In this document: one piece after another, positions 30,516 through 64,000 of the stretch
How positions within the stretch are numbered: the stretch's first letter is position 1
Layout of the letters: each line of letters opens with the position of its first letter
DNA from: Yersinia mollaretii ATCC 43969
Lineage (GTDB): Bacteria; Pseudomonadota; Gammaproteobacteria; Enterobacterales; Enterobacteriaceae
Assembly (NCBI RefSeq): GCF_013282725.1
Contig: NZ_CP054043.1
Coordinates: 434,001 to 498,000, forward strand
Direction: 5' to 3'
Length of the DNA: 64,000 nucleotides
Position numbers and translations under genes: made by a program
Notes under the pieces: model-generated
Databases searched by the model: none
Seen by the model: the letters and a program-made list of their open reading frames with translations, nothing else
What the model was told of the DNA's origin: nothing

Positions 30516-30592
30516 GGCCCCTTAGCTCAGTTGGTTAGAGCACGCGACTCATAATCGCTTGGTCACTGGTTCAAGTCCAGTAGGGGCCACCA
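30516..30592 (+). tRNA. ileX: tRNA-Ile2 (CAU anticodon, lysidine type; ileX-like)
   Basis: A 77-base cloverleaf with the encoded CCA end. The acceptor stem GGCCCCT pairs with AGGGGCC, the D arm GCTC/GAGC and the T arm CTGG TTCAAGT CCAG are intact, and the anticodon loop is CTCATAA. The sequence follows E. coli ileX, so the CAU should be modified by TilS to read AUA, rather than being tRNA-Met. The top anticodon-stem pair is C-T. It lies downstream of rpoD as in E. coli. It marks the border between core genome and the flagellar region. Confidence 0.93.
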
Positions 30593-30618
30593 AATTTTAG
30601 CTGTTAAATCAGTACATT

Positions 30619-30648
30619 AAGCCACTTTTAACGAAGTGGCTTTTTTGT
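30619..30648 (+). terminator. Terminator after the tRNA gene
   Basis: AAGCCACTT and AAGTGGCTTTTTT form a stem with a TTAACG loop and a T tract, 27 bases after the tRNA. Confidence 0.85.
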
Positions 30649-30691
30649 ATCTGGCATTTAAGTGACGATGAAATGGCGATGCACCCAGCAC

Positions 30692-30728
30692 AAATAAAAA
30701 ACGCCCAATGAGGTACATCAGGCGTTTT
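30692..30728 (-). terminator. Terminator downstream of the DsbA-like gene
   Basis: AAAACGCC and GGCGTTTT form a perfect stem. On the minus strand the stem is followed by TTTTTATT, so it ends transcription coming from the DsbA-like gene at 30865-31503. The plus-strand side has only a short T run. Confidence 0.75.
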
Positions 30729-30854
30729 GAGGGTTGATAAGTGTCAACATATAGCGGGATAAGTCACTCGATATGGCTAATAGCAAAATCACAGTGAAGA
30801 TTTTGCTATTAAGAAATTAAGCGGCCTACGAGCCTTTGGGGCGTTTCCTCCGCA

Positions 30855-30880
30855 AGATAAACAGTTATGGCTGTTTATCT
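30855..30880. repeat. Perfect 10-bp inverted repeat across the stop codon of the DsbA-like gene
   Basis: AGATAAACAG and CTGTTTATCT are exact inverted copies separated by TTATGG. The loop holds the stop codon (TAA on the minus strand) of the DsbA-like gene. There is no T run, so it is more likely an mRNA 3' stabilising hairpin or a protein-binding palindrome than a terminator. Confidence 0.5.
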
Positions 30881-31503
30881 AATAAGAAACGAATCACAGA
30901 TGCATACTCTTTGGCATATCCTTCAATACTTTTATCCGCTATGCCGGAATTTTCGATCTTGTACTTTCCTGAGACATAAAATGAAGGCGTTCCTCGAATA
31001 TCCATCTCTTTTACAGTCTCATTCTGTTTAGCGACTAAAGCTTTTACCGACGGGCTTTGACGTATATTGTCATAGACGGATTCATTGACTCCAGCCTCAG
31101 CAAACAATTTCTTAATATCATCAATTCCATTAATGGCGTTTTCTCTTTGAAGCCTTTCAAACAATCTTGTCTCTATTTTATCTTCAATGCCGAGAACCAT
31201 AGCGACGGACCATGCCTCTGTTAACTCGTTGCCCAATTTACCCATCAGGCTGACATGGTATTTGACGAGTTTTGTTCCTACAGGCAGCCCTTCACTCACG
31301 CTCTTGCTAACGTTATAGGTACTTGTAAACATATAACAGGGGCCGCAATAAAATGAAAAAAACTCGACAACTGCGGGGGCTGATGCCACAGGTTTCTCAA
31401 GAGAGGTATAACTGACACCTTCTTTATAATCAGCCGCATAGGAGGCAGGGAGTGAGAGCATAAGTAGCAATGCTATAAAACCTAGATGAATTCTCTTTGA
31501 CAT
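30865..31503 (-). CDS. Periplasmic DsbA-like thiol:disulfide oxidoreductase (CGPC)
   Basis: A 212-residue DsbA-family protein. It has a signal peptide (residues 1-23, ending SYA), a thioredoxin-fold active site FFSFYCGPCYMF at about residues 48-59, a helical insertion (about 75-160) and the cis-proline loop RGTPSFYV (about 170). It would introduce or exchange disulfides in exported proteins. The active site is CGPC rather than the CPHC of E. coli DsbA, so its redox potential may differ. It has its own terminator. It lies between the tRNA and the flagellar genes and is probably an accessory paralogue of the core dsbA. Confidence 0.85.
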   Translation of the reverse strand: MSKRIHLGFIALLLMLSLPASYAADYKEGVSYTSLEKPVASAPAVVEFFSFYCGPCYMFTSTYNVSKSVSEGLPVGTKLVKYHVSLMGKLGNELTEAWSVAMVLGIEDKIETRLFERLQRENAINGIDDIKKLFAEAGVNESVYDNIRQSPSVKALVAKQNETVKEMDIRGTPSFYVSGKYKIENSGIADKSIEGYAKEYASVIRFLLDKQP

Positions 31504-31657: not shown

Positions 31658-32518
31658 TTATAAATATGTTTTGAACCAGTCTGCCTGGATATTAACTGCA
31701 TGGTCAAAATGCTCACCGCTGTACATATCATAATGCTGAGCGCCCTCGACCACATGAAGATGCTTTTTATCTGATTTGACTGCACCATATAACTCCAGCC
31801 CTTGTTCGGGTGGATTGACGGTATCATTCCCTGCCACAACAATCAGGCTCGGACAAGTGACACGCATGGCGTTCTCTTTGGGCTTATATTGCAGGGTCTC
31901 TTTTACCGTCAGGAAAGGAATCTTAATATTCATTGTCGGGTGACGATTTTTATTCTCTTCGAAGAATGCTTTTGACTCCTCATCAGCCAGCACACGGGTT
32001 ATTCCAACAAACATCTCCTTCCCTGTAATGCTCTTTTTTTCTGCCATTTTGTTTAATGTGGCAATGAACCCTGTCTTCTCGTCCTCGGACATTTTTCCCG
32101 TCACGATCTTCTCGCCATCAGCAAAAGCCAACTGACTCACGATACATTTGATATCACTATTTTCTGCCGCAGCCCCAAAGACATGGCAGCCGCCAAAGGA
32201 TGTTCCCCACAAACCGATACGGTTTTCATCAATACCCGATTTATCTTTAATCCATTCAACAACGGAAAGGATATCTTCGATTTGCATTGCAGGGACAAGA
32301 CGACCACGCTCTCCTGTACTTGCTCCAAAACCTCTGTAATCGAATGTAACGGTGCAGAACCCTGAGTGCGTGAAAAATTCAGCGAATGGCGGGAGTAAAA
32401 TTTCCTGTATACCGCAAAAACCGTGGCACAAAATAATGACCGGGAGATTTCCTGCAGATAGGGGTTTTCTTAGTGTAAGAGCGATACCATTAGGTAACTG
32501 ATATGTTGTTGTTTCCAT
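31658..32518 (-). CDS. Alpha/beta hydrolase (putative dienelactone hydrolase/esterase type)
   Basis: A 286-residue single-domain alpha/beta hydrolase. The oxyanion strand IILCHGFCG is at about residue 28, the nucleophile elbow GTSFGG at about 107, the acid in VVAGNDTVNPPEQ (about 230) and the histidine in EGAQHYDMY (about 260). No signal peptide is visible, so it is cytoplasmic. The substrate cannot be named. I chose the ATG at 32518 (METTTYQLP); the ATG at 32530 has its AAGGA directly abutting it. It is 154 bases from the DsbA-like gene on the same strand. Confidence 0.75.
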   Translation of the reverse strand: METTTYQLPNGIALTLRKPLSAGNLPVIILCHGFCGIQEILLPPFAEFFTHSGFCTVTFDYRGFGASTGERGRLVPAMQIEDILSVVEWIKDKSGIDENRIGLWGTSFGGCHVFGAAAENSDIKCIVSQLAFADGEKIVTGKMSEDEKTGFIATLNKMAEKKSITGKEMFVGITRVLADEESKAFFEENKNRHPTMNIKIPFLTVKETLQYKPKENAMRVTCPSLIVVAGNDTVNPPEQGLELYGAVKSDKKHLHVVEGAQHYDMYSGEHFDHAVNIQADWFKTYL

Positions 32519-33001
32519 ATAGTAAATCATTCCTTATTTCAGATAAATAAAAGAGCCTATGCGGATATGTAACAGCAACTTGATGAGGGTCAGAAAATAG
32601 GTATCCGCATAGAGATCCACTGTTAATCACTCAGAATTGCGATCTTATAGGTAGGGCTATCTTTCATTACCAGAAGCCATGCCAAATAAATGTTGGCTCT
32701 GGCTTATCACTTCCACAATCTAATATGTTTCAGAACTCGGGCTATTCGCTATCAGTGTCATTTCCAGCCGACAAAACCCATTTTTCATAATAAAAGAAGA
32801 GAGGCAGAAATAGCAATCACCAACGATCAGATAAAAACATATTGATACATATTTTTCAGATACAGATAGAGTGATAACGCTTACCTTCAACAAACGAAAA
32901 ATTCTAAAAATCCCCCCTTCTGTTTAATAAGGGTTTATTTCACGCAGGGAAACTCAATAGATAGAATGCGATATTTTGGCAAAACTATTTTTAAATAACA
33001 G
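32519..33001. other. Gene-poor AT-rich gap between the hydrolase and fliR
   Basis: About 480 bases without a credible gene on either strand. Base composition is clearly more AT-rich than in the core genes. It contains the promoter side of the hydrolase gene and the 3' flank of the fliF-to-fliR operon. I see no insertion sequence, integrase fragment or tRNA-end repeat here. Confidence 0.5.
32900..32935 (-). terminator. Candidate terminator of the fliF-fliR operon
   Basis: On the minus strand CCCTTATTAAACAGAAGGGG can fold with a five-base stem and is followed by GGATTTTTAGAATTTTT. It lies about 70 bases after the fliR stop. The stem is short, so confidence is limited. Confidence 0.4.
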
Positions 33002-33781
33002 TCAGGCAAGAAGAGTCATTATTCTCGTGACATGATCGAAAATCTCTTCCATCATGTTTTCAAAAAATGGCGATAATGTGTACATCATCATCGATAAGGC
33101 AGCCATCCCAGTACCGAGTGTCAAAGGAAAACCCACCACAAAGATCGAGAGCTGGGGCGTGAGACGGTTGAGAAGCCCCAACGTCAAATTAAGGCATAGC
33201 AGTAAAGTAATAATAGGCAAACCCAACATCAGCCCAAATCTGAAAATTAATCCTGCCGCGTGGGGTAAATAGATAAAGCCTTCTGAATTGAATTCATCAC
33301 TGTTTATAGGCAAGGCGATAAAACTGTCTGCTAGGATGCTGAGCATCCATAAGTGGCCGTTAAGGGTCAAAAAGAGTAGTGTCACCAGAAGATTAAGTAT
33401 TCTGGCAACCACTGGCATATTCCCCCCAGCAGCAGGATCATAAAAGGTTGCAAAGGAGAGCCCCATTTGCAATCCAATAATCTCCCCGGCATTGCGTACA
33501 GCCACAAATATAAGCTGGATAGTTAACCCCATTGCCGCACCAATAATGAATTGCTTGGCCCCTACCCATAATCCGGTAATAGAAAAAATCTCAATATGAT
33601 TATTGGGAAGATGCTGGCCAACCAACAAAGCGATAATAGCGGCCAAACCGACTTTGGTTTTTCTGCCAATACCTTTTTCATTAAAAATAGGGGCAGTACT
33701 GAAGAGTGCTAATATTCTCAGCATTGGCCAGAAGAATTGGTTAATAATGGGATACAGGCTAGCGATTGATAGGGTGAGCAT
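33002..33781 (-). CDS. fliR: Flagellar export gate protein FliR
   Basis: A 259-residue polytopic protein of the FliR/SctT family (E. coli 261). With FliP and FliQ it forms the helical export gate inside the MS ring. Several hydrophobic helices are visible, with the family start FWPMLRILALFSTAPIF, the GLQMGLSFATFYDP loop and the C-terminal LTPQLSIFVVGFPLTLGTG. It is the last gene of the minus-strand fliF-to-fliR run, two bases after fliQ. Confidence 0.95.
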   Translation of the reverse strand: MLTLSIASLYPIINQFFWPMLRILALFSTAPIFNEKGIGRKTKVGLAAIIALLVGQHLPNNHIEIFSITGLWVGAKQFIIGAAMGLTIQLIFVAVRNAGEIIGLQMGLSFATFYDPAAGGNMPVVARILNLLVTLLFLTLNGHLWMLSILADSFIALPINSDEFNSEGFIYLPHAAGLIFRFGLMLGLPIITLLLCLNLTLGLLNRLTPQLSIFVVGFPLTLGTGMAALSMMMYTLSPFFENMMEEIFDHVTRIMTLLA

Positions 33782-33783
33782 AG

Positions 33784-34053
33784 CTATCCAATGACATACG
33801 GTAAATTGCTATAAAGCGTGCGCGTATAGTCAAGGAAAACACTCAGCATCCATGGCCCCAAGGCGACACCTACGGCAATAATCGTCAGTATTTTAGGTAT
33901 AAACGATAGTGTCATTTCATTTATTTGGGTTGATGCCTGCAAAATACTGACAATAAGGCCAGTAAACAAAGCGGCAAATAATAGTGGTGCCGCCATCATC
34001 AGCCCGACTTTAATTGCCTGAAGCCCCATCGCCATTACACTTTCGGGTGTCAT
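33784..34053 (-). CDS. fliQ: Flagellar export gate protein FliQ
   Basis: An 89-residue two-helix membrane protein, the exact length of E. coli FliQ. The start MTPESVMAMGLQAIKVGLMM and the conserved ASTQINEMTLSFIPKI segment identify it. It packs around FliP in the export gate. It lies between fliP (12 bases) and fliR (2 bases). Confidence 0.96.
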   Translation of the reverse strand: MTPESVMAMGLQAIKVGLMMAAPLLFAALFTGLIVSILQASTQINEMTLSFIPKILTIIAVGVALGPWMLSVFLDYTRTLYSNLPYVIG

Positions 34054-34065
34054 CTCTTATCCTAT

Positions 34066-34839
34066 TTAGCTAAAGAAGCTTTGTGCTAACGAGCCCATTA
34101 ACAGTTGCCAGCCGTCAACCAGAACAAACAGCATTAATTTAAAGGGCAATGATATTGTGGCCGGTGGAACCATCATCATACCCAGCGCCATTAATACACT
34201 GGCGACCACTAGATCAATAATCAGAAAAGGAATAAACACGGTGAATCCAATCTGGAATCCGGTTTTCAGTTCACTGGTCACAAAAGCGGGAAGCAGAATT
34301 CGCAACGGCACATCATCCTGACTTTGAAAATTCTCCTCTTTCGCCATTCGCGTATAGAGAGCCAAGTCAGTTTCCCGTGTCTGCTCTAGCATGAAAGTCC
34401 GCAGCGGCTGCACACCTCTTTCCAGTGCTGTCTCCATGGAGATTTTGTCTTCAGAGAGCGGTTGCCAAGCCTCTTTATATATCTGATTAAAAACAGGTGA
34501 CATGACATAGAAGGTCAAAAACAGGGCCAATCCAAGTAACACTTGATTCGGTGGTGTAGAGGGTGTCCCAAGTGCATTACGTAATAAGCCCAACACAATG
34601 ATAATGCGGGTAAAACCCGTCATCATCAGCAGTATGGCGGGTAAAAACGTTAAAGACGTTAGGAGGACCAGCGTTTGCACCGGCAACGACCAATTCTCAC
34701 CATCTGCGGAACGTGCCATCATCACATCACTGTTCGCCGCCCAGACACTATGGACGGGCAGCAAAAATCCAATCATCAGCAGAGTGAGTAGACCCAAGCA
34801 CATCCAGACACTCGTACCTTGTCGTGGGACTGTATTCAT
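34066..34839 (-). CDS. fliP: Flagellar export gate protein FliP
   Basis: A 257-residue export-gate protein with a cleavable-type signal peptide (residues 1-35), a feature of FliP, then four membrane helices. Family segments [40 protein letters not shown] and [20 protein letters not shown] are present in order. FliP forms a pentamer at the core of the flagellar type III export apparatus. Its ATG overlaps the fliO stop (ATGA), showing translational coupling. Confidence 0.96.
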
Positions 34840-35243
34840 GTTCCAGACCCCGCTTTGCCTTTTTTTAACATGCCTATCAAGGTCGATTGAAAATCACCGG
34901 ATGGTGGCGAATCAGCAGTAATATGCTGATCTTCTGACTTTTCAAATGTCGCCAGACAACTGATTTGGGTCGCCGTGATACCGAGTAATAATCTTTTATC
35001 ACCCATATCCATCACAATAACGCGCTCACGCTGCCCCAGTGAATGGCTGCAAACCACAGAGAGAATCTGATTTCCCTTTGGGAAACGCTGGGCAAGCCCG
35101 GTGCGGCGAGCAACCCATGCAATGGCGGCAATAATCAGTAATATCAACGCCAGTGAGCTACCAATATTGACTAATAATGAGCCGGGTGTTGTGGCATCAA
35201 TCATCGAAGATGATGCCTGGATTTGTGTTTGGTTACCCATCAT
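34836..35243 (-). CDS. fliO: Flagellar biosynthesis protein FliO
   Basis: A 135-residue protein with one membrane helix (about residues 22-45) and a cytoplasmic domain ([41 protein letters not shown]). FliO helps assembly and stability of FliP. The gene overlaps fliN at its start (ATGA) and fliP at its end, a tight fliN-fliO-fliP coupling as in E. coli. Identity rests on the conserved C-terminal core and position. Confidence 0.93.
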
Positions 35244-35629
35244 CGACTCAAGCGGTACATTCTTTCTGAAGGCGTAATAATATCTGTAATACGGATACCG
35301 AATTTATCAGAAACGACGACAACTTCACCTTGGGCGATTAAGTAGCCATTGATGAGAATATCCAAAGGTTCACCGGCCAGTCCTTCCAGAGAAACAACAG
35401 ATCCCTGACTCAGGCGCAGCAACTCTTTAATTGTCATTTTAGTGCGGCCTAATTCAACCGTCATCTTGACGGGAATATCCAGAATCAAATCGAGATCTTC
35501 AGAAAAATTAGGGACCAGATTCTCTTTGGCTGGCATATTATCTGCTGTTTGTTGCTCGCTCATCGCTTCACCCCAAAGATTATCAATAGATTGCTTATCA
35601 GCACCAGACGTAGGTGTGGTGTCACTCAT
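35240..35629 (-). CDS. fliN: Flagellar motor switch protein FliN
   Basis: A 129-residue C-ring component (E. coli 137) with a variable acidic N-terminus and a C-terminal SpoA domain (about 50-127): LDIPVKMTVELGRTKMTIKE and PLDILINGYLIAQGEVVVV. FliN forms the base of the C ring, binds CheY-P and docks the FliH-FliI export complex. It is seven bases after fliM and overlaps fliO. Confidence 0.96.
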   Translation of the reverse strand: MSDTTPTSGADKQSIDNLWGEAMSEQQTADNMPAKENLVPNFSEDLDLILDIPVKMTVELGRTKMTIKELLRLSQGSVVSLEGLAGEPLDILINGYLIAQGEVVVVSDKFGIRITDIITPSERMYRLSR

Positions 35630-35636
35630 GGGGGAA

Positions 35637-36635
35637 TTACTCCTTTTTTAAAGATAATAGTGCGGGATTCATCATTTTCTCGACTTTGAGAGCATATTGC
35701 TTATTAACACAACCGTACTTACCAGAAAATACGGGAACCCCATCAACACAAGCTTCAATACTCTCTTGTTTATCAATAGGAATTACATCACCTTCTTTCA
35801 TCTTCATCACTTGTGAAAGGCGAGTCGGTATATCAGCAAAACTTGCCACTAACTCAAGTTCAGTTTCTCTGACCTGTGAGGCGAGTGTGTTGCGCCACTG
35901 TTTTTCTTCTTGGCGCGAATTTTCCATTGGCGGGCTGGTTAATAGCTCACGTAAGGGTTCAATAATGCTGAAGGGAATACAAATATCAAACTCACCTCGG
36001 TGTGGGCCTATTTCTACATAAAATGGCGTAGTCACCACAATATCATTCGGTGATGAGGTGATATTAGTGAACTTGACCTGTATTTCTGCACGCACATATT
36101 CAGTATGCAGTTTAAAGATCGAGCTCCATGCGAAATCATAAGCTTCAAGTGCCATCGTTAACATGCGTTTAATCACGCGCTGTTCCGTTGGCGTAAACTC
36201 TCGCCCATCTGCTTTAGTGGGGAATCGCCCATCGCCACCAAACAAATTATCTACCGCCATGAAAACCAGATTAGGCGAGAAGACAAAAAGTGCCGTGCCG
36301 CGCAGTGGGTTCATATGGACCAAATTAAGATTGGTGGGGACCGGAAGATTACGCGCAAACTCATGATACGGCTGTATTTTAATATTTCCGGCGGTGATAT
36401 CCGGACTACGGCGCAAAAGATTAAACAACCCCATTCGGAACTGACGGGCAAAACGTTCGTTAATAATCTCAAGAGAATGTAAGCGCTCACGGACAACACG
36501 GCGTTGAGTATTAGGATCGTAAGGTTTAATACCTACATCTAATGCCGGGTTATTTGCTAGATCTTCACTTTCAGTATTACTACCGCCATTGAGAAGGCTG
36601 TCTATTTCGGCCTGAGACAATATGCTATCAGACAT
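35637..36635 (-). CDS. fliM: Flagellar motor switch protein FliM
   Basis: A 332-residue C-ring protein (E. coli 334). The N-terminal CheY-P binding peptide DSILSQAEIDSLLNGG is intact, followed by the CheC-like middle domain (about 45-230) and the C-terminal SpoA domain (about 245-320). The intact N-terminal peptide fits the presence of cheY in the same cluster. It is six bases after fliL. Confidence 0.97.
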   Translation of the reverse strand: MSDSILSQAEIDSLLNGGSNTESEDLANNPALDVGIKPYDPNTQRRVVRERLHSLEIINERFARQFRMGLFNLLRRSPDITAGNIKIQPYHEFARNLPVPTNLNLVHMNPLRGTALFVFSPNLVFMAVDNLFGGDGRFPTKADGREFTPTEQRVIKRMLTMALEAYDFAWSSIFKLHTEYVRAEIQVKFTNITSSPNDIVVTTPFYVEIGPHRGEFDICIPFSIIEPLRELLTSPPMENSRQEEKQWRNTLASQVRETELELVASFADIPTRLSQVMKMKEGDVIPIDKQESIEACVDGVPVFSGKYGCVNKQYALKVEKMMNPALLSLKKE

Positions 36636-36641
36636 TAGGAA

Positions 36642-37142
36642 TTACCGTAATATGAATGCATTAAATAATACATCTGTAATCATCACACTCTGATTCGGTG
36701 CAAGTGGTTTACTGACAACGCTTTTAATTTTTTCAATTAATTGGTTTTTCCCATCATCCACCGATAAATCTTCAGCAGTTTGATGCGCTAAAATCATCAG
36801 TAATCGACTGCGAATTTCCGGCAAAAACTTCTCTACCAATAATTTTGAATCTTCATCTTTAACGCGTAAAGTCAATCCAATATACAACACGCGATCAGAT
36901 TCAGTAGACGTCGGTTTAAGGCTAACGGTAAAGGTATCCATGGGGATATATAATGGCGTCTCTGGGATCTTTACCGAAGCTGTTTTCTTACCTTCGTCTG
37001 GTGCATTGGCTTTCATGTTTTTTATTTCATAAAAAGTATAACCAGCCAAGGCACATGCTGCGATTGAAATTAACATCAGTAATAAAACTAACCAGGGGAA
37101 TTTTTTCCCACCCCCATTAGCTTTCTGATTCTTTTTTATCAT
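36642..37142 (-). CDS. fliL: Flagellar basal body-associated protein FliL
   Basis: A 166-residue membrane protein with one N-terminal helix (about residues 16-36) and a periplasmic stomatin-like domain ending in the family hallmark ITDVLFNAFILR. FliL encircles the stators and supports torque. I chose the ATG at 37142 (MIKKNQKANGGG), which gives a basic cytoplasmic N-terminus; an in-frame start at 37193 adds 17 residues. The 146-base gap to fliK may hold a separate promoter, as fliL starts its own operon in E. coli. Confidence 0.93.
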   Translation of the reverse strand: MIKKNQKANGGGKKFPWLVLLLMLISIAACALAGYTFYEIKNMKANAPDEGKKTASVKIPETPLYIPMDTFTVSLKPTSTESDRVLYIGLTLRVKDEDSKLLVEKFLPEIRSRLLMILAHQTAEDLSVDDGKNQLIEKIKSVVSKPLAPNQSVMITDVLFNAFILR

Positions 37143-37200
37143 TTTGTGAAAAACCCTATTATAAATACCCTGATTTCCGGCAATAGCAAACATGCGGATG

Positions 37201-37222
37201 AGCTGTACATTCTATTACAGCT
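37201..37222. repeat. Inverted repeat in the fliK-fliL gap
   Basis: AGCTGTA and TACAGCT are exact inverted copies with an eight-base loop, 58 bases upstream of the fliL start and 67 beyond the fliK stop. No T tract follows, so it may be a weak terminator of the fliF-K unit or an operator. No function is shown by the sequence alone. Confidence 0.35.
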
Positions 37223-37288
37223 AGGCTCTAGGGCAATTCACTGAAGAAATTGAATTATTGTCGCCAATTCATTTGATGATTAAATTTC

Positions 37289-38521: not shown

Positions 38522-38967
38522 AAGGTTTTTCTTCCCATACAGGCACGCTGTGCAAATTCATCCATCATCTTCTGTTCCTGACGATTCTCTTTTAACATTT
38601 TCACGGCATCTGCCCTGCTTTTGAGGGTCTCGAACGCATTGAGACGCCGCTTATCTTGTTTCCATGCCAGCAATGTTTGGTCCACTGAATGCTGGCATTG
38701 AGCCACTTGCCCTGCTTGTTGTTTGACGACACTGCCCAGTGAATCAATAAAAGATTGGCGGTTTAGCAGGTCAGCAATAGGCATACCTTTCTCCACAACA
38801 CTGCTGCGTAATTGCTGCTGATATTCCAATTCGAAACTTTCAAGTTGATCAAGTTGCAGCACGGCTTGGGTGTGTGCTTGCTGCATTTTCCCTAGCTGAA
38901 CAGTGGTATCACTTAATGTTTTTTCTGCCAGATCGCGCAGGACATCCATTGGGCTAGTGATCGCCAT
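38518..38967 (-). CDS. fliJ: Flagellar export chaperone/ATPase stalk FliJ
   Basis: A 149-residue, almost wholly helical protein (E. coli 147). It forms a coiled coil that fits the centre of the FliI hexamer and contacts FlhA. Family residues are spread through the helices, for example DVLRDLAEKTLSDT at the start and FETLKSRADAVKM near residue 115. Between fliI (15 bases) and fliK (overlap). Confidence 0.93.
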   Translation of the reverse strand: MAITSPMDVLRDLAEKTLSDTTVQLGKMQQAHTQAVLQLDQLESFELEYQQQLRSSVVEKGMPIADLLNRQSFIDSLGSVVKQQAGQVAQCQHSVDQTLLAWKQDKRRLNAFETLKSRADAVKMLKENRQEQKMMDEFAQRACMGRKTL

Positions 38968-38982
38968 AATTAATTACTCACC

Positions 38983-46383: not shown

Positions 46384-46447
46384 TTTATTCCCCTTACCAC
46401 CATGAGCATCCTTCATTGGGTGCATTTTACTTTTATAGGATCAAAAT

Positions 46448-46837: not shown

Positions 46838-46840
46838 ATT

Positions 46841-52039: not shown

Positions 52040-52101
52040 ATCTGCTCCGTAATAAAAAGGCTGAAGACTCGCACCTCCAGCCGGTTAATAAATGCGAAAA
52101 C

Positions 52102-54021: not shown

Positions 54022-54048
54022 TTTAGGGATTTTTTCTCGTGCCGATGT
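54022..54048 (+). promoter_or_regulatory. Predicted sigma-28 (FliA) promoter of fliC
   Basis: GCCGATGT at 54041-54048 with TTTAGGGA 11 bases upstream fits the FliA promoter layout (consensus TAAAGTTT-N11-GCCGATAA), the -10 better than the -35. It lies about 75 bases before the fliC start, the expected distance for an enteric flagellin gene. Between this and the fliD promoter are about 240 bases with no supported gene. Confidence 0.6.
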
Positions 54049-55251: not shown

Positions 55252-55294
55252 TATTTCTTAGTACCCTTTTAGCCCGCAGCCTATTCCGGGCCTT

Positions 55295-56005: not shown

Positions 56006-57553
56006 TTATGCGTGATGACGGTCTACTTCAATTTGAAATACTGACACCATCTCTTCCATTATGGTGGTCTGCTCATTCATTAATACGGTAATTGCGGCCG
56101 ACTCTTCCACCAAAGTTGAATTCCGCTGTGTCACGATATCCATCTCATTAATCGCGACAGCCACTTGCCGGATACCCATGCTCTGCTCTTCAGAAGCTTG
56201 CGTAATATCCTGCATAATGTCGCTGACTTTATTCACCATCGCCACGATCTCAGACATGGTATTTTTAGCACTGTCTACGCGTTTACTTCCCGCCTGAGTA
56301 TCATGTACTGAATGCTCGATTAACCCCCGAATCTCTTTTGCCGCATCGGCACTTCTTTGTGCCAAATTACGCACTTCAGTAGCGACGACCGCAAAACCAC
56401 GCCCCTGCTCACCAGCGCGCGCCGCTTCAACGGCGGCATTAAGTGCCAGAATATTAGTCTGGCTGGCAATACCGTCAATCACTTTAATAATATTGGAGAT
56501 CTGGTTGGCATGACTGCCGATGGTATCCATCGAGCGCACCACATCCACCATAATAAGAGAGCCACTGTCCGCCAACTCTTTGGTGTCCGTTGCCAATTTA
56601 TTGGCTTCGTGGGCATGGGCGGTATTATTCTCAACGGTGGTTTTAATCTGTTCCATACTGGCTGCGGTTTGTTGCAGCGCACTGGCCTGCTCTTCAGTGC
56701 GTGAAGAGAGATCGTCATTGCCTTCGGCGATCTCCATGGCGTTATGTTTGATATTACTGGCGGCCTCTTTGACACCGGCAATGATTTCAACCAGCCCACT
56801 ACGCATCTCTTCAATATTGGCAAAGAGTTTACCGACTTCATTGGTGCCATATTGCGGCACTCTCTTTGAAAGCAATCCCATGCTGATTTCAGAGAAGATC
56901 TGCGAAGCTTCTGCCAACCGATTCAGTATAAACCGGGTGATATATTTCAGCAGTGAAAAATAGAGCAAAATAAAGAGCGCGATAATAATAGAGATAGTCA
57001 CTACCAGAGCACTGTGTAAATAATCATTTTTGACATCAAATGATTCCATTGAGTCCGCTGAAAACTTCAAATACTCTGCAACTAATACCTCAAGTTGCGG
57101 AACAAGCTCATCAGTATCATTAATGGCTTCGCCTCCCTGCTGTCTGGCATCAAGATTATTCATGTAGCTGTCGAGAATCTTGATAAACATCGCCCCCGTT
57201 CGCTCAGATAACTCTTGGATCTGTTCTGTCGATTTCGGTTCCTTCACCCATTTAGTAATAGTCTCTCGTATCACTTTATTTTTAATATTTATACTACTAA
57301 CCAGTTCTGGATCAGTCGGTTGATTTTCCAGCGCGGCTATTTTAATCAATAGAATGTTACCCCGGACGACCATCAGCTTATACATCGCCTGATCCACGAG
57401 TTCCACTCGGCCATGTAGGTGAATCGTATCTTCAAAATTCTGTTGGGAGGTGCTCGATGTTTTTAAGCTCAAGCCCGCAAGGACAATAAAAAGAGCGACG
57501 ATGATATAAAGATGAAACTTCACCATTTTGTTAATACTGATGGCAGATAACAA
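56006..57553 (-). CDS. Methyl-accepting chemotaxis protein
   Basis: A 515-residue receptor with TM1 (about 14-33), a periplasmic helical domain (about 34-185), TM2 (about 186-208), a HAMP domain and the MCP signalling hairpin. The tip is [20 protein letters not shown] followed by [20 protein letters not shown]. It lacks the C-terminal NWETF-type pentapeptide that tethers CheR and CheB in Tar and Tsr, ending instead [10 protein letters not shown]. The ligand is unknown. It is the only receptor gene in the window and lies 125 bases after cheW on the same strand. Confidence 0.93.
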
Positions 57554-57678: not shown

Positions 57679-58185
57679 TTATTCGTAACTGACCTCAGCC
57701 ACGTGATCGACGATCTCCATCTCTTCACTGTTCAGCAGTTTTTCGATATCGACCAGAATAAGCATACGGTCATTAAGCGTACCCAAGCCCAATAAATATT
57801 TAGTCGAGAGTGTCGCAGAGAAATCGGGGGCCGGTTTAACTTGTTCCGCATTTAATGCCAGAACATCTGAAACCCCATCCACCACAATGCCGACAATGCG
57901 ATTAGCCAGATTTAATACAATAATCACGGTATTTTCATTGATATCCGCAGAGGGCAGTTGGAACTTCACCCTGAGATCAATAATAGGTACAATGACACCG
58001 CGAAGATTCATCACCCCGGTAATAAAATCAGGCGTATTCGCAATTCGGGTCACACGATCGTAACCGCGAATTTCCTGAACTTTCAGGATTTCAATACCGT
58101 ACTCTTCTTTGCCTAAGGTAAATATCAGATATTCCTGACCGGTATTTTGATCGCCAAATTGATTTTCTGTTCCAGATAAATGCAT
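57679..58185 (-). CDS. cheW: Chemotaxis coupling protein CheW
   Basis: A 168-residue SH3-like coupling protein (E. coli 167) that links receptors to CheA. Family segments [38 protein letters not shown], and [16 protein letters not shown] are present. It follows cheA after 52 bases and precedes the receptor gene, as in the enteric cheAW-receptor order. Confidence 0.97.
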
Positions 58186-58237
58186 TGAATTACCTCATTC
58201 AATCGATATACGTTAATTTTGTTGTTCAGCGACTGTC

Positions 58238-60235
58238 TTATTTTTTACTCAGCGTGGACAAAGCGGCAACATCCAAAATCAGTGCCACACTGCCGTCACC
58301 CAGAATTGTCGCTGCTGATATTCCTGGAACTTTACGGTAATTAAGTTCAAGATTTTTGACCACGACTTGGTGCTGGCCGATTAATTGATCGACGAGTAAG
58401 GCATAGCGGCAGCCCGCACTTTGTAAGATGACGGCAATCCCATCATTTGCCAGTGCCGAATCACTCTTAATATCGAAAATCCGATGCAGCTCAATCAGTG
58501 GGAGATACTCCCCTCGCACCTGTAACATCAACTCATCGCCTGCCATCCGATACAGGGCATTTTCAGAGGGTTTTAGCGACTCCATCACGGTTCCAAGGGG
58601 CAGCACATAAATCTCATCACCGACGCGCACTGACATGCCATCCAATATCGCCAGCGTCAGCGGCAAAATGATCCGAATGGTGGTGCCTTTATCTTGCACT
58701 GAGTGAATTTCAACATGCCCGCCCATGGCCAGAATGTTTCTGCGCACCACGTCCATCCCGACACCGCGCCCAGAGACATCCGTGACTTTTTCCGCCGTTG
58801 AGAAACCCGCGGCAAAAATCAGCATCCAGATATCTTCATCACTCCAGCTATCACTGATCGCCATTCCCTGTGACTTGGCCCGTGCGAGTATCTTCTCGCG
58901 ATTAAGCCCCGCGCCGTCATCGATCACTTCAATAACAATACTGCCACCATGATGCTCTGCGGAAAGCGTCAAATTCCCTTTACCCGTTTTTCCCTTCGCC
59001 TGCCGCACTTCAGCCGACTCAAGACCATGATCCAGACTGTTACGGACTAAGTGAGTCAGGGGATCAATAATTCGTTCAATCAAGCTCTTATCCAGCTCTG
59101 CCGATCCCCCTATTAAGGTTAGCTCCACCTCTTTATCCAGCTTGCCGCCTAAGTCATGCACCAGTCGCGGGAAGCGGCTGAAGACATACTCCATTGGCAT
59201 CATCCGGATCGACATCACTGACTCCTGCAAGTCACGCGCATTACGTTCCATCTGCCCGATGCTGCTAATTAGAGTGTCATGTTGAGCCGGGTCCAGAGAG
59301 CTGGAGAGCTGTGATAGCATCGCCTGAGTAATAATCAGCTCACCCACCTGATTGATGATCTGATCCACCTTCTCCACCGCGACCCGTAGGCTACTTGACT
59401 CTGTGGCTGGGGCTTTAGCGGTGGCTTTCGGCTTTGAGGTTGGTGAGGTTGCGGGGACTTCGGGTGGTGTTTCATTGGAGCACGGTTGAACCGCGGGTGC
59501 TGTCTGCGTAGCCTGTTCAGCAGACGTGATATCCCGTGCCGGTTCGCTCGCGGTCGATTCACTTGCAGCTGATTCACTTGCAGTAATGGTGATCTGCTCA
59601 GGTTCAAGGATAAAACAGAGTACCGCGAGAATATCGTCAGCCGATGCCGTGGTCTGCAACTCTATCTGCAACACATCCGCTTGTTGTTGCTGACTGAGCA
59701 CCTCACCCAGGTTGGCTAACTCCTCGAGCAAGACCCCTTTATCGGCTTCAGGAATGGCCGTGAGTGAGACGATCAGCGGATTGCTAGCCGTTGCTGATGG
59801 CACGGCAATCTGTTGCTTCGGTTCTGATGCTGCTATCGCGCTACCGTTTTTATCTTCGAGTGCGATTTGGCGTAATGCCTCGCAAATATAGTGGAAACTC
59901 TCTTGGTCAGGCTCCCGCGAGGATTTATACGCATCAAGCTGATCTTGCATAATATCTTTGCTCTCCAGAAACAGGTTAACAATGTCGCTGTTTAACCGCA
60001 GTTCACCACGCCGGGCATCATCCAGTAGGTTTTCCAGTATGTGCGTCGTCTCCTGCAATACCGTAAAACCGAAAGTCCCCGCTCCCCCTTTTATCGAGTG
60101 AGCGGCACGAAATATGGCGTTAAGCATCTCTTTATCAGGTGAGATGTAATCCAGCTCCAGAAGATGCATTTCCATATCAGCCAGTAACTCATCAGCTTCA
60201 TCAAAAAAGGTTTGGTAAAAATCACTTATGTCCAT
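58238..60235 (-). CDS. cheA: Chemotaxis histidine kinase CheA
   Basis: A 665-residue kinase (E. coli 654). P1 carries the phosphorylated histidine in FRAAHSIKGGAGTFGF (about residue 46); P2 binds CheY; a Pro/Thr/Ala/Ser-rich linker spans about 225-270; P3 dimerises; P4 has LTHLVRNSLDHGLE, DDGAGL and GRGVGMDVV; P5 is CheW-like. I chose the ATG at 60235 (MDISDFYQTFFDEAD) with an AAAGG site; a TTG at 60244 is in frame. The start lies inside the 3' end of motB. Confidence 0.96.
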   Translation of the reverse strand: MDISDFYQTFFDEADELLADMEMHLLELDYISPDKEMLNAIFRAAHSIKGGAGTFGFTVLQETTHILENLLDDARRGELRLNSDIVNLFLESKDIMQDQLDAYKSSREPDQESFHYICEALRQIALEDKNGSAIAASEPKQQIAVPSATASNPLIVSLTAIPEADKGVLLEELANLGEVLSQQQQADVLQIELQTTASADDILAVLCFILEPEQITITASESAASESTASEPARDITSAEQATQTAPAVQPCSNETPPEVPATSPTSKPKATAKAPATESSSLRVAVEKVDQIINQVGELIITQAMLSQLSSSLDPAQHDTLISSIGQMERNARDLQESVMSIRMMPMEYVFSRFPRLVHDLGGKLDKEVELTLIGGSAELDKSLIERIIDPLTHLVRNSLDHGLESAEVRQAKGKTGKGNLTLSAEHHGGSIVIEVIDDGAGLNREKILARAKSQGMAISDSWSDEDIWMLIFAAGFSTAEKVTDVSGRGVGMDVVRRNILAMGGHVEIHSVQDKGTTIRIILPLTLAILDGMSVRVGDEIYVLPLGTVMESLKPSENALYRMAGDELMLQVRGEYLPLIELHRIFDIKSDSALANDGIAVILQSAGCRYALLVDQLIGQHQVVVKNLELNYRKVPGISAATILGDGSVALILDVAALSTLSKK

Positions 60236-61283
60236 CTTGCTCAACCTTTACCTGAGTAGAAATAGTCGGAACTGCCGAAATAGTCGGAACTGTAGAAATA
60301 ACCGGAACTAAAGAGGTCACCGGAACTGCAGGAATAACCGGAACAGTGGCTGCCGGTGCTGCTTTTATTGGCACAGTCTCATCGGCCGCCATTTTTTTCA
60401 GTTCAGCTTCAATTCTTGCACTGCTTTGATTATCAGAAACACTCTGCAAGACCACGTCCTCTTCCAGAATCGACTTCTCTTTGTTTTTGCTCAGTACCAA
60501 AATACTGATCCGGCGGTTGATAGGCGCATCTGACTTCACATTTGCCAGATTCATCATGTCGGCAGAACCAATCACCCGCAGAAATTTATTGTCCGCCAAT
60601 CCGCCAGAGACCAAGGTACGCCGTGAAGCATTCGCCCTATCTGACGACAGCTCCCAGTTGCTGTACCCTGCTTCGCCATTGACGTAAGGCAGGGAATCGG
60701 TATGACCCGTCAGGTTGATTTTGTTGGGCAGGTCATTGAGCACCGGAACCAGTGCCTGAAGAATAATCCGCATATACGGCTCCAGCTCCCGGCTCCCCAC
60801 TTTGAACATGGGGCGTTCCTGACTGTCGATAATCTGGATAAGCAGTCCATCATCGGTCAAAGAGAGGCGGAGATTTGACTGAAAATCACTCAAGCGCGGA
60901 TCTTTTTTGATCAGGTTTTCGAGTTTCTCGTGCGCACGCCGTAAATTCTGCGCATTTTTCTGTTTATCCATTTTCGCCAGTGTTTGCTTGAGCACTTCCC
61001 CATCTTGCTTCATAAGGTCATCCCCTCCACCAGGAATAGGGCTATCGCTGACACTGGATTTGTCTCCGTGCGACATCGCCAGCTTCAGGGGCATTTTAAA
61101 GTAATCAGCAATTTGCTCGCGCTGCAAAGGGGTGGAGGAGGAGAGCAGCCACATAACCAAAAAGAAGGCCATCATGGCGGTCATAAAATCCGCGTAGGCA
61201 ATTTTCCAAGAGCCGCCGTGGTGAGCATGTTTAGCGCGTTTTCGTTTACGAACAATGATTACAGGTTTGGCACTAGTACTCAT
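60222..61283 (-). CDS. motB: Flagellar stator protein MotB
   Basis: A 353-residue stator subunit (E. coli 308). The proton-channel aspartate D32 is present in SWKIAYADFMTAMMAFFLVM, followed by a plug region and an OmpA-like peptidoglycan-binding domain (about 150-270, NLTGHTDSLPY). The C-terminus is extended by about 40 residues made mainly of VPxIS/VPxT repeats, encoded by degenerate 18-base tandem units. It overlaps motA by four bases and cheA at its end. Confidence 0.96.
   Translation of the reverse strand: MSTSAKPVIIVRKRKRAKHAHHGGSWKIAYADFMTAMMAFFLVMWLLSSSTPLQREQIADYFKMPLKLAMSHGDKSSVSDSPIPGGGDDLMKQDGEVLKQTLAKMDKQKNAQNLRRAHEKLENLIKKDPRLSDFQSNLRLSLTDDGLLIQIIDSQERPMFKVGSRELEPYMRIILQALVPVLNDLPNKINLTGHTDSLPYVNGEAGYSNWELSSDRANASRRTLVSGGLADNKFLRVIGSADMMNLANVKSDAPINRRISILVLSKNKEKSILEEDVVLQSVSDNQSSARIEAELKKMAADETVPIKAAPAATVPVIPAVPVTSLVPVISTVPTISAVPTISTQVKVEQDGHK
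60253..60345. repeat. Degenerate 18-base tandem repeats in the motB 3' end
   Basis: About five tandem units of the type GAAATAGTCGGAACTGCC, GAAATAGTCGGAACTGTA, GAAATAACCGGAACTAAA, GAGGTCACCGGAACTGCA, GGAATAACCGGAACAGTG. On the minus strand they encode a six-residue unit (VPVISA-like) near the MotB C-terminus. The unit is a multiple of three, so copy-number change would keep the frame. Confidence 0.85.
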
Positions 61284-62179
61284 GATGGGCTGTCCGGCGC
61301 ATTGCTGCTATTTGCCGAGGATTTCACCTCACGCACATGTTCTTCCAGCTCAATAAAGGTAGGACGCTCGGTAGAGAATAGAATCTTGCGACCAAATTCA
61401 ACGGCGATCTGTGGCGCATAACCATTCATGCTGGAGAGTAAAGTGACCCGGATACATTGCAGTATTTTAATTTGCTCACTGCTTTTTTGGCGCAGCAAGG
61501 AAGCGAGCGGTAAAACAAAACCATAGGCCAGTAAAATACCCAAGAATGTCCCCACCATGGCATGAGCAATCAGTTCACCCAATTCGGCTGCCGGACGGTC
61601 TGCGGCCGCCAGCGCATTCACCACCCCCATTACGGCGGCAACAATACCGAAAGCGGGTAAGCCATCGCCAATCTCATTCAGACTCTGTGCAGGGACTTCA
61701 TGCTCATGCTCACAGGTTTCAATCTCTTCATCCATCAATGCTTCTATTTCAAAAGCATTCATACTTCCGCTCACCATCAGGCGTAAATAGTCGATGACAA
61801 AATTCATCAATGCGGAATCGGCAAGTAGACGTGGGTAAGCTGAAAAAATAGCGCTGTTCTTCGGATCTTCAATATCCTGCTCCAGCGCCATAAGACCATT
61901 CTGTCGGCCTTTATTCAGCAGCAAATACATCATGGCCATGAGGTCCATATAGAGCACTTTGGTATAGTGCGAACCTCTAAATAAATGCGGTAACGCTTTC
62001 AGTGTGGCATTTATCGATTTGCCGTTATTACCGACAATAAAAGCCCCTATACCCGCCCCACCAATAATCAAAAGTTCCGTGGGTTGATAAAGCGCACCCA
62101 GCACTCCCCCCGAGAGACTAAACCCACCAAAAACAGTCAAAATGACAATCAGATAACCAATAATGACTAACACATGCAC
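61280..62179 (-). CDS. motA: Flagellar stator protein MotA
   Basis: A 299-residue stator subunit (E. coli 295) with four membrane helices. The cytoplasmic loop has the FliG-contact charges R90 and E98 in NKGRQNGLMALEQDIEDP, and the functional prolines are in GDGLPAFGIVAAVMGV and YGFVLPLASLL. With MotB D32 this indicates a proton-driven stator. The gene is 129 bases after flhC on the same strand and overlaps motB. Confidence 0.97.
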   Translation of the reverse strand: MHVLVIIGYLIVILTVFGGFSLSGGVLGALYQPTELLIIGGAGIGAFIVGNNGKSINATLKALPHLFRGSHYTKVLYMDLMAMMYLLLNKGRQNGLMALEQDIEDPKNSAIFSAYPRLLADSALMNFVIDYLRLMVSGSMNAFEIEALMDEEIETCEHEHEVPAQSLNEIGDGLPAFGIVAAVMGVVNALAAADRPAAELGELIAHAMVGTFLGILLAYGFVLPLASLLRQKSSEQIKILQCIRVTLLSSMNGYAPQIAVEFGRKILFSTERPTFIELEEHVREVKSSANSSNAPDSPS

Positions 62180-62308
62180 TCCTTAATAATTAAATGCATT
62201 GATCTCACCGCATTGTTTAATTTCTATAAATTTTACGCACAGGGTGGCCGTACCAGACTAATCTGATACTTATACTTATGATTAGTAATGCCTTATCGGC
62301 TAAATCAT

Positions 62309-62863
62309 TTAGATGCTGGCAATATTCTCCAGCGGCAAGTCAGGAGTCTTACATTTTTTAATTGCACGAGAGGGTGGGCTACATAAACTACAGGTAAATG
62401 GATTCTTAGAATATTCACTCGTAACAACAAAACCGCCACCACAAATACAACACTCTGTATGTTCTATAATTCCACAATTGATGAATCTTAATAATGTCCA
62501 TGCCCGCGTTAACCCCAAGACTTGTTTTTCACCGGGTGGGGTTGGACATTGTTCCAGATAGAGGCGATACGCTTTAACCGTTGCTTCAATCGGTCGACAG
62601 TTTTCAGTCTTTTGCAGATAAAGATGGATATTATAAAACATAGATGCGTGAATATTTTGTTCCCACGCCATAAACCAATCTTCAGAAAATGGCAGCATTC
62701 CCTTTGGGGGCGGGCATCCTCTGAGTTCTTTGTAAAGGCGCAATAACCTTCTGCGGCTTAGGCTCGTTTCGCACTCTAACATCTGCATACGAGCACCAAA
62801 AGAGATCAGCTCCATGGCTATTTGTACTTCTTTAATTTCCTGCAATATACTTTTCTCGGTCAT
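62309..62863 (-). CDS. flhC: Flagellar master regulator subunit FlhC
   Basis: A 184-residue subunit (E. coli 192) of the FlhD4C2 activator that switches on class 2 flagellar promoters with sigma-70. The core is well conserved ([36 protein letters not shown]). The zinc-binding cysteines are in CCICGG and TCSLC near residues 139-160. I chose the ATG at 62863 (MTEKSIL); a GTG two codons upstream is possible. It follows flhD after 14 bases. Confidence 0.96.
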
Positions 62864-62877
62864 GATCACAAATTCCT

Positions 62878-63225
62878 TTAGGTTGGTGTCAGACTTTGCT
62901 CAGAAAGCGAGTTCAGCAGGTTAGTTGATAAAATAATGCCAGTATGAATTTGCTGCAAAGCCTCAATGCGGGAGTCTTTAGTCAAATTATCAATTACAAT
63001 TTCGTTATCAACGCGAAGACGGCAAATAAGTTGGTTAGTCGATGCCAGCTTTATCAACTGAGGGAGGGAGAGTTCCTTCAATGTATCGATGGTTGCTTCA
63101 GTTAACCCAAGGCGGAAGGCTGCTGCAAACTTATCTTCCCTAATTAATTGTTGAGCCAATAGTAGATAGGACAAGTTGATGTCATGAATTCTTTGTAACT
63201 GTTCGTCAATATTTCTTACAATCAT
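62878..63225 (-). CDS. flhD: Flagellar master regulator subunit FlhD
   Basis: A 115-residue subunit (E. coli 116) of the FlhD4C2 activator. Family segments [29 protein letters not shown] (with the inter-subunit cysteine) and [16 protein letters not shown] are present. The start at 63225 has an AGGG ribosome site. First gene of the minus-strand flhDC-motAB-cheAW-receptor series. Presence of its own flhDC suggests the cluster can run its own hierarchy. Confidence 0.96.
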
Positions 63226-63709
63226 TTTGTTACCCTAATTCATCTCACGGAGAACATGAGTGAATAAATTTTAATTAATGTGTTGACATTCGATAATGAC
63301 AATTAGAACTACAGTGTTGAAGCTGCAAATATATGTGCTTTCGCCTTAGGAATATTTTTACTGCCAAATAGTTCATAACATCATGAAAAATATCTAATTG
63401 TATGAATTTCATTCATTCATTCTAATTCGGATATTTCTTTACTTAAACCTCATCAGACTCAATGCAATAAAAGTATTAATAAACGGAGACGCCCAATCAT
63501 ACCTAATATTTCAAAGTAGTTGGCGGTGTGAGGAACTATTTCCCCGTATAGTAACTGCTTTAATCGACAAGCTCAACTTTTAATCCACACACTATTAAGA
63601 ATTAATACTTTTCTTAGTTTGTATAACTGGTAACGCCAATAAGAATTACTGGTAACGACAAAGTTACAAAATATATATTTACATAAAAAATTCATTATCT
63701 ACGACAAAG
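63226..63709. promoter_or_regulatory. AT-rich upstream region of flhDC
   Basis: A 484-base, strongly AT-rich gap between flhD and the fliA end. A candidate sigma-70 promoter for flhD is on the minus strand: TTGTCA (63297-63302), a 17-base spacer and ATTAAT (63274-63279), which would give a leader of about 42 bases. Long AT-rich leaders are normal upstream of flhDC, where H-NS and other regulators act. There is no fliZ here, and no clear fliA terminator is visible. No gene is supported. Confidence 0.45.
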
Positions 63710-64000
63710 TTATTTACGCAGCGCATCTAATCTGGCACGTAACCGCTTAATTGCCTGACTGTGTAACTGACTGACTCTTGTCTCCGTTATTTCCAACAAG
63801 ATGCCAACCTCTTTCATGTTTAGATCTTGTTGATAATAGAGATTCAATAACAACTGGTCCCTTTCTGGCAGCGCTTTTATTTCTTGACTGATATGCTTTG
63901 TTAAATTTTCCTTCATTAATTCATGTAGCGGGTTCAACATTTCATGCTGAATATCGGGCTGTTCAATACTGTCTGATAACTCTTCTTGTAACTCATCTAA
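63710..64000 (-). CDS. fliA: Flagellar sigma factor FliA (sigma-28), 3' part, truncated by the window edge
   Basis: The last 96 codons of fliA; the reading frame stays open to base 64000, so the start lies outside the window. Region 4 is clear: KALPERDQLLLNLYYQQDLN then MKEVGILLEITETRVSQLHS and QAIKRLRARL, the helix-turn-helix that reads the -35 box. FliA transcribes class 3 genes such as fliC, motA and the che genes. In most enterics fliZ follows fliA; here the next gene is flhD. Confidence 0.95.
   Translation of the reverse strand, partial: LDELQEELSDSIEQPDIQHEMLNPLHELMKENLTKHISQEIKALPERDQLLLNLYYQQDLNMKEVGILLEITETRVSQLHSQAIKRLRARLDALRK

Follow-up and report, generated by a model that had tools for sequence, protein, structure and literature searches.

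A second flagellar cluster of flag-3b type in Yersinia mollaretii and its TTTAG sigma-28-like promoters

Yersinia mollaretii ATCC 43969 carries, close to rpoD and the ileX tRNA, a cluster that is very probably (we estimate about 0.93) a complete flag-3b system. Such a system would give the cell a further peritrichous-type flagellum, served by a master regulator, a sigma-28/anti-sigma pair, a motor and a chemotaxis pathway of its own and by two receptors. The TTTAG form of the predicted -35 box before its fliC, flgM and flgK genes, together with an associated signature in FliA, appears to be a new observation, no earlier report of the flag-3 TTTAG sigma-28-like promoter class having been found in the literature searched. 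The promoter and FliA signature offers a concrete and cheap handle on how two cascades stay apart, and a possible marker separating both regulons in Enterobacterales genomes. How a cell separates two nearly identical flagellar cascades is a question left by the survey of De Maayer, Pillay and Coutinho 2020 (PMC7526173), which finds the presence of two peritrichous systems per cell puzzling and regards class 2 regulation in flag-3b as unclear.

The flag-3 cluster is intact and 45,323 bp (45.3 kb) long. It contains 46 flagellar and chemotaxis genes, all with open frames (46/46), plus two receptors, in the order flgNMA-flgBCDEFGHIJKL-[mcpB]-fliA-flhDC-motAB-cheAW-[mcpA]-fliCDST-flhEAB-cheZYBR-fliEF...R. 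The sole absentee is fliZ, which was not found within the cluster and is carried by the primary block. The window, that is, the whole stretch of 64,000 nucleotides analysed, to which all positions refer unless given as genome positions, covers the left two thirds of the cluster (33002-64000). The genes listed in the preliminary description (fliE-R, fliC/D/S/T, flhA/B/E, flhDC, part of fliA, motAB, cheA/W/R/B/Y/Z and one receptor) are all in the window and open, but the length of about 31 kb given there reflects the cut made by the window: the remaining 14.3 kb, with the rest of fliA (to genome position 498435), mcpB, flgLKJIHGFEDCB, flgA, flgM and flgN, extend to genome position 512324. The GC content, 47.5% in the cluster, 47.2% in the right flank, 50.8% in the left flank and 51.1% in the primary block, is uninformative.

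The left boundary is marked by the tRNA(CAU) in the ileX position (30516..30592, plus strand; tRNA-Met(CAT) according to ARAGORN), directly preceded by the core gene rpoD (28406-30310). This tRNA does follow rpoD, but the flagellar genes do not start immediately after it, as had been described: they begin at 33002, and the interval 30593-33001 holds two accessory genes on the minus strand, a dsbA-like thiol:disulfide oxidoreductase gene (30865..31503; scoring 234 bits and so short of the DsbA equivalog cut-off, 279) and a UilS-family N-acyl-homoserine lactonase gene (31658..32530; 499 bits, cut-off 400), neither of which has a match at the counterpart site of genome G005. Then follow fliR-Q-P-O-N-M-L-K-J-I-H-G-F (33002..43733, minus), encoding the export gate, switch, ATPase and MS ring; fliE (44008..44346, plus); cheR-cheB-cheY-cheZ (44504..47482, plus); flhB-flhA-flhE (47534..51188, plus); fliT-fliS-fliD of block 2 (51301..53574, minus); fliC, encoding a 373-aa flagellin (54130..55251, plus); mcpA, in the cargo position beside fliC, encoding a Tar-type receptor with TarH, HAMP and MCP signalling domains (56006..57553, minus); cheW and cheA (57679..60244, minus); motB and motA (60222..62179, minus); the master regulator genes flhC and flhD, both above the NCBIfam cut-off (62309..63225, minus); and the 3' part of fliA (63710..64000, minus). 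The small genes fliT, flhE and flgN score below their NCBIfam cut-offs, and their assignment rests partly on position.

The cluster had been proposed to be a supernumerary, self-regulated system. Indeed, a separate complete primary set, including a second flhDC, fliC and flhA, is situated at 3.073-3.127 Mb of the same genome, and flag-3 has its own flhDC, fliA, flgM and che set. On the other hand, the expectation that flagellar genes normally lie in several blocks does not hold for this primary set, which forms one block. All 46 flag-3 proteins have matches (E at most 1e-3) in the 100-kb stretch holding the primary block, hence chance resemblance is not an issue; the mean identity is 55.8%. 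Recent copying from the primary Yersinia set is rejected by this identity and by the trees. In the FlhA tree (a quick search with no bootstrap) the cluster belongs to the flag-3 clade with Rahnella, Pluralibacter, Citrobacter amalonaticus and Buttiauxella warmboldiae (SH-aLRT 99-100), and grouping with the Yersinia primary FlhA is rejected (AU p 4.7e-99). The FliI tree agrees, placing the cluster outside the primary clade and within the flag-3 group; in the family, the flag-3 clade is sister to the primary one. The predicted distinctness from the lateral type is also confirmed, as FlhA lies outside the flag-2 clade, flag-2 FlhA being only 41–45% identical. A lateral (flag-2) second system is rejected, since the third FlhA-like gene of the genome is SctV, the type III secretion gate (1023.9 bits, cut-off 800), and flag-2 FlhA is absent from this genome. 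Of the three findings named beforehand as refuting the proposal, none occurred.

The preliminary guess that the locus type already has a name was right. Gene content and order match the flag-3b locus of Enterobacterales catalogued earlier (PMC7526173), hence the kind is already known and the locus adds one more, fully intact, member to it. Shared features are 46 of 47 primary-type genes, the absence of fliZ, the block order 3-2-1, a receptor (mcpA) beside fliC, a length of about 44 kb and coexistence with flag-1. According to the same survey (PMC7526173), flag-3b occurs in 39 of 394 Yersinia strains, a cargo island is present in 78 of 95 loci, not always with a receptor, and the peritrichous placement of the flagella is a prediction; its flag-3b tree was built from 25 concatenated proteins, compared to the two single genes, FlhA and FliI, on which the clade placement is based here. 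The Y. mollaretii cluster differs in having an additional receptor, located between flgL and fliA, and in the dsbA/uilS pair at the left edge. The main text of the survey (PMC7526173) mentions neither tRNA nor rpoD, the rpoD-ileX site being undiscussed there, nor promoters.

The flag-1 primary system of the same genome and of E. coli K-12 has the same functions and the same FlhDC and FliA cascade, but falls in a clade of its own, carries fliZ and TAAA-type sigma-28 promoters, and shows GES in the FliA recognition helix. The lateral flag-2 system, likewise a supernumerary flagellum of Yersinia, has a distinct FlhA clade. In Vibrio and Aeromonas, a single cell has a polar and a lateral flagellar system, and each of the two uses a sigma-28 of its own. 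However, these pairs differ in architecture and master regulators, whereas here both systems are FlhDC-type and of predicted peritrichous type.

A scan with the textbook sigma-28 consensus yielded no good site before flag-3 fliC, mcpA and mcpB, and therefore a footprint alignment was made. The putative flag-3-type sigma-28-like promoter of fliC, TTTAG-N15-CCGATG, is situated at 54022..54047 (plus strand). The pattern TTTAG-N15-CCGATR occurs five times in the 4.6-Mb genome, three times before flag-3 fliC, flgK and flgM and never in the primary block. The pattern TAAANTTT-N11-GCCGATA (at most one mismatch) has 11 occurrences, six in the primary block and none in flag-3. Since the reversed-pattern controls gave eight and five matches, respectively, the number of motifs is not special, only their placement; moreover, the motif was derived from the same genome, so the whole-genome count is circular and the proper test lies in the held-out loci.

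In six Yersinia flag-3 loci the flag-3 promoter form precedes fliC, flgM and flgK (6/6 in each case). In the primary set of the same genome TAAA/TCAA sites are seen in all six genes tested, and the flag-3 form in none. Outside the genus, eight held-out loci with flag-3b order feature the flag-3 form (TTTAG/TTCAG) in 13 of 18 upstream regions and the TAAA pattern in 0 of 18, the latter count being less telling than the former, as the TAAA pattern is strict and also misses E. coli fliC and flgK and the primary flgK of this genome. The strict motif is absent from 5/18 held-out upstreams; with a spacing of 14–16 and a 350-bp window, 14/18 have it. The held-out loci contain 15 flag-3-motif matches in 234 kb, compared to 1 when the pattern is reversed and 0.95 in Markov simulations (maximum 4 of 20 runs).

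The exception is fliD. A TAAA-type box precedes the flag-3 fliD gene in five of the eight held-out loci and in three of the six Yersinia loci; in this genome a near form, TAAACTTA-N11-ACCGATGT, is seen, and two genomes (G014, G015) have the TTTAG form. Apart from fliD, which may be read by either FliA, the flag-3 genes fliC, flgM and flgK have a predicted promoter class that the primary set lacks. Upstream of Yersinia flag-3 motA, mcpA and mcpB, neither the consensus scan nor the footprint alignment rows listed revealed a conserved sigma-28 site; one receptor gene, from Citrobacter, is preceded by the flag-3 form.

The recognition helix of FliA differs between the systems, with T217/T219 in flag-3 and G217/S219 in the primary protein. 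TET is found in 13/13 aligned FliA rows of flag-3b type and in the flag-3a-type FliA of G398, and GES in all of the best 20 primary rows. The sister clade has GEP in three of three FliA rows, two of them from one genus, and TAAAG in three of three fliC promoters. Across genera the TTTAG form goes with T217/T219 FliA; this association may reflect one evolutionary event, since a single origin is possible for TET as well as for TTTAG.

We suggest that flag-3 FlhDC would activate the flag-3 basal-body genes, while flag-3 FlgM would hold flag-3 FliA until hook completion; the freed FliA would then transcribe fliC, flgM and flgK from the TTTAG promoters. Primary FliA, matched to TAAA boxes, would read these promoters poorly, so that the late genes of both flagella could be switched separately. 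Flag-3 FliA would thus be an orthogonal sigma-28, the replacement of G217/S219 by T217/T219 plus that of TAAA by TTTAG/TTCAG at fliC, flgM and flgK separating the late genes; we consider the chances of this even. Partial insulation of the flag-3 late genes from the primary system, predicted from sequence, is given the same weight; it would not be complete, as many loci retain a TAAA-type box at flag-3 fliD. If true, the orthogonal sigma-28 would explain both the coexistence of two same-logic peritrichous systems in one cell and the transferability of the whole unit, working on arrival. A somewhat less probable, though serious, alternative is neutral drift of the promoters, with both FliA proteins reading both classes and the cascades cross-wired, as would be consistent with the -10 core CCGAT common to both classes and with the retained fliD boxes. 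However, drift fits poorly with the 13/18 and 0/18 counts in the held-out upstreams and with the change of the box together with residues at the start of the recognition helix, the sister clade combining TAAAG and GEP.

The flag-3 cluster is present in 7 of 25 genomes of the genus, this one included, at different sites and in two lineages. A grouping of both lineages in one clade is rejected (AU p 0.023, the group having been named after the tree was seen), and Buttiauxella warmboldiae is placed among the Rahnella and Yersinia rows in the FlhA tree. Horizontal arrival of the cluster thus seems probable. An old duplication of the primary system, followed by vertical inheritance, loss in most lineages and later moves within the chromosome, would agree with the sister position of the flag-3 and primary clades and the conserved gene blocks, and block duplication is favoured, for flag-1/3/4, by De Maayer et al. 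(PMC7526173). Nevertheless, the patchy distribution at differing sites, the two separate Yersinia lineages and the position of B. warmboldiae make it unlikely.

The flag-3 system is probably expressed and functional. A silent or decaying spare set is rather improbable, even though a spare-parts role has been raised (PMC7526173), since promoter footprints are conserved across genera, all 46 frames are open and key residues are intact, namely CheA His, CheY Asp, MotB Asp, the FlhC cysteines and the C-terminal EWETF of mcpB.

In E. coli the ileX tRNA-Ile(CAU) is likewise downstream of rpoD, and here the cluster now occupies a variable region bounded by ileX and hdeD-fadH. The preliminary description had the cluster acquired at this tRNA; the location stands, but capture by the tRNA is not supported, since, although the cluster begins 2.4 kb past ileX, an integrase-mediated island is very improbable given no second copy (at least 14 bp) of the tRNA 3' end in genome positions 434001-530000, no integrase among the genes between ileX and hdeD, all accounted for, and flag-3 located elsewhere in most carriers. 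Integration driven by the tRNA was rejected for want of a direct repeat at the far end and a linked integrase. In a comparison of the rpoD-ileX locus across the genus, as proposed earlier, flag-3 was found there only in this genome and G005, of the seven carriers. The sequence just past the tRNA is common to 7 of 20 site regions for 61–88 bp and looks native; in the remaining 13, similarity ends within 5 bp of the tRNA end, as capture would have it. Relatives have phage genes at the site and 50–109-bp copies of the tRNA 3' end, in nine genomes 5–48 kb downstream on the same contig. In G006 and G012, where similarity stops at the tRNA, a second copy of its end is situated 39–47 kb downstream and continues for 56–61 bp into that same native-looking sequence otherwise seen just past the tRNA.

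The second flagellar and chemotaxis set of the Y. mollaretii genome (G000; 4.60 Mb, single contig, window at G000:C1:434001-498000) is denoted flag-3. From its left end at window 33002, fliR to fliF lie on the minus strand, followed within the window by fliE, cheRBYZ and flhBAE (plus), fliTSD (minus), fliC (plus) and, up to the window edge, mcpA, cheWA, motBA, flhCD and fliA (minus). Beyond the edge are mcpB and flgLKJIHGFEDCB (minus), then flgA, flgM and flgN (plus), the right end being at genome position 512324, and further right hdeD. The reading frames are open in 46/46 flagellar and chemotaxis genes, some of whose starts were assigned automatically and may be off. The second system is intact and has its own regulators.

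The cluster carries 46 of 47 genes, fliZ being missing, and has the block order 3-2-1. In content, order and the presence of a receptor gene beside fliC it is like flag-3b as described by De Maayer et al. (2020, PMC7526173), its size being 45.3 kb versus an average of 44.3 kb. Their survey reports flag-3b in 39/394 Yersinia strains; the guess of the preliminary description that the system might already have a name was thus correct. Flag-3 is also mentioned in a Rahnella paper and an Enterobacter hormaechei paper. In a tree of 65 FlhA rows, made by quick search under LG+G4 with SH-aLRT as the only support, the window gene groups with the flag-3 genes of Yersinia, Rahnella, Buttiauxella warmboldiae, Pluralibacter and Citrobacter amalonaticus, and 13 Yersinia primary rows stand apart from it. 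The AU test rejects its placement inside the primary clade (p 4.7e-99), and the FliI tree, whose 25 rows include just two primary ones, agrees, placing the system outside the primary Yersinia clade, as had been supposed. We assign the cluster to flag-3b, as a complete system, with a probability of about 0.93.

Three genes of the genome match the FHIPEP profile (PF00771), namely the flag-3 flhA, the primary flhA (3.088 Mb) and a gene at 1.650 Mb. The latter was ruled out as flagellar, as it encodes the type III secretion protein SctV; the FlhA of the lateral system, flag-2, is absent among these matches. The primary block (3.073–3.127 Mb) is complete and continuous, and includes fliAZ and two receptors between cheW and cheR; its fliR was found through a separate match. 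Since the third gene is sctV and the primary block is complete, the genome has a primary (flag-1) and a flag-3 system without a flag-2 FlhA, and the earlier view of flag-3 as supernumerary holds. The chromosomal sctV gene (1650226-1652196, locus L003) lies beside a FliI-like ATPase gene, apart from the flagella.

All six primary late genes considered (fliC, flgM, flgK, fliD, motA, tar) have good sigma-28 sites of the TAAA/TCAA type, and a scan of the flag-3 genes of the same genome for good sites of this kind yielded none. The aligned upstream regions of flag-3 fliC, flgM and flgK from six Yersinia loci contain a conserved T(T/C)TAG, 15 bases, CCGAT(A/G). Two promoter classes are present within one genome. 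The pattern, fixed on these six loci, was then run on eight held-out loci of flag-3b order outside the genus. With spacing 14–16 and 350 bp it was found in 14 of the 18 available upstream regions, and with spacing 15 and 230 bp, a narrower setting picked after that result, in 13/18 (fliC 6/8, flgM 3/4, flgK 4/6); the TAAA-type pattern was found in 0/18. Upstream of ten genes from the primary blocks of Y. mollaretii and E. coli, the flag-3 form occurs in 0/10 cases and the strict TAAA pattern in 7/10. The 234 kb of held-out sequence contain 15 flag-3-form matches, 13 of them at fliC, flgM or flgK; the reversed pattern gave one match, and Markov sequences 0.95 on average (maximum 4, 20 runs). 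In a flag-3a-type locus (genome G398) flgM and flgK are preceded by the flag-3 form, and fliC by a near form. The exception is fliD, with a TAAA box in 5/8 held-out and 3/6 Yersinia flag-3 loci.

Region 4.2 of FliA has a known role at the -35 element. Its recognition helix reads V/I-T-E-T-R-V-S-Q in flag-3 (13/13 rows of one alignment and 7/7 of another, the sets overlapping), V-G-E-S-R-V-S-Q in the primary system (20/20, the best-scoring rows of the sample) and V-G-E-P-R-V-S-Q in a clade sister to flag-3 (3/3 rows). In the latter, the fliC promoters have TAAAG (3/3, two of the three genomes being from one genus), yet region 2.4 is of the flag-3 form; hence the -35 change tracks region 4.2 and not region 2.4. 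Aligned with E. coli FliA, the variable helix positions correspond to residues 217 and 219, and from the role of region 4.2 we infer that these residues touch the -35 element. A single event at the base of the flag-3 clade may account for the association of helix and box. The sister loci (L232, L233 and L234, from G165, G156 and G298) have fliC beside fliA and a gene order unlike flag-1, flag-3a and flag-3b; they may represent flag-4 or an unnamed type.

In the proposed scheme flag-3 FlhDC would act on class 2 genes; once the hook is complete and FlgM is exported, flag-3 FliA would act on fliC, flgM and flgK, and the -35 box would keep these targets apart from primary FliA. Judged from sequence, such insulation of the two sigma-28 regulons has about even odds, and it would be partial rather than total, because of the fliD exception and the common -10 core. 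Flag-3 might serve for swimming under other conditions, as a different antigen, or for export. A search of the open-licence literature yielded no paper on the promoters of flag-3 or on the specificity of FliA.

Flag-3 FlhA is present in 7/25 Yersinia genomes, own included. The preliminary description placed the cluster at the rpoD-ileX locus; this applies to Y. mollaretii and G005, where flag-3 lies between ileX (window 30516-30592) and hdeD, but not to the other carriers, with flag-3 at other places in G018, G024, G014 and G015 and on a different, short contig in G004. In G018, the nearest 6 kb of the left flank map mainly to 4.43 Mb of the Y. mollaretii genome, the farther part to 2.54 Mb, and the right flank to several places; with both flanks mapped, no clean empty counterpart was found there. 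The two Yersinia flag-3 lineages, own and that of G014/G015 (FlhA 79% identical), are not a single clade by the AU test (p 0.023, the group having been named after the tree had been seen). Horizontal arrival of the cluster is probable.

Among 19 other ileX site regions (three shorter than 20 kb), hdeD was found in nine. G018 carries phage tail genes at the site, and G009 and G015 carry related ones; G007 has a NamZ/PTS cluster there (relatives in G010, G011, G013, G024 and partly G019), and G002 one transporter-like ORF, identified by eye. As the fillings differ between genomes, the ileX-hdeD stretch is an insertion hot spot. In nine genomes the contig with the tRNA carries copies of its 3'-end 5–48 kb downstream, and similarity breaks at the tRNA end in 13/20 site regions; hence ileX is a plausible prophage attachment site in relatives. 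The Y. mollaretii locus bears no mark of the initially suggested acquisition of flag-3 at this tRNA: a search of the flag-3 site for a repeat of the tRNA end was negative, and what follows the tRNA is the same sequence that continues from the distant copies in G006 and G012. The interval between ileX and fliR holds two genes (window 30865-32530, GC 41% versus 47.5% for flag-3), one dsbA-like and the other for a quorum-quenching lactonase of the UilS type. The pair has no match at the corresponding place in G005, which is occupied by a receptor gene and a LuxR-type regulator gene.

Directly beyond flgN, G005 has SrfA-family, SrfB and Virul_Fac genes (L082:12415-18899), and about 5 kb past flgN are common to G005, G018 and G024. 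In Y. mollaretii the trio is absent beyond flgN, hdeD following after 0.2 kb; part of the shared 5 kb has a diverged match (67%) at 3.535 Mb. The ancestral flag-3 unit may have been larger. To the right of hdeD are genes that we take, by eye and from the E. coli gene order, to be fadH, rlmG and ygjP. An autotransporter-like gene to the right of fadH (L011:9424-12440) encodes a long proline-valine-alanine repeat, and its frame, by eye, seems to stop early and resume in an overlapping ORF (11916-12440).
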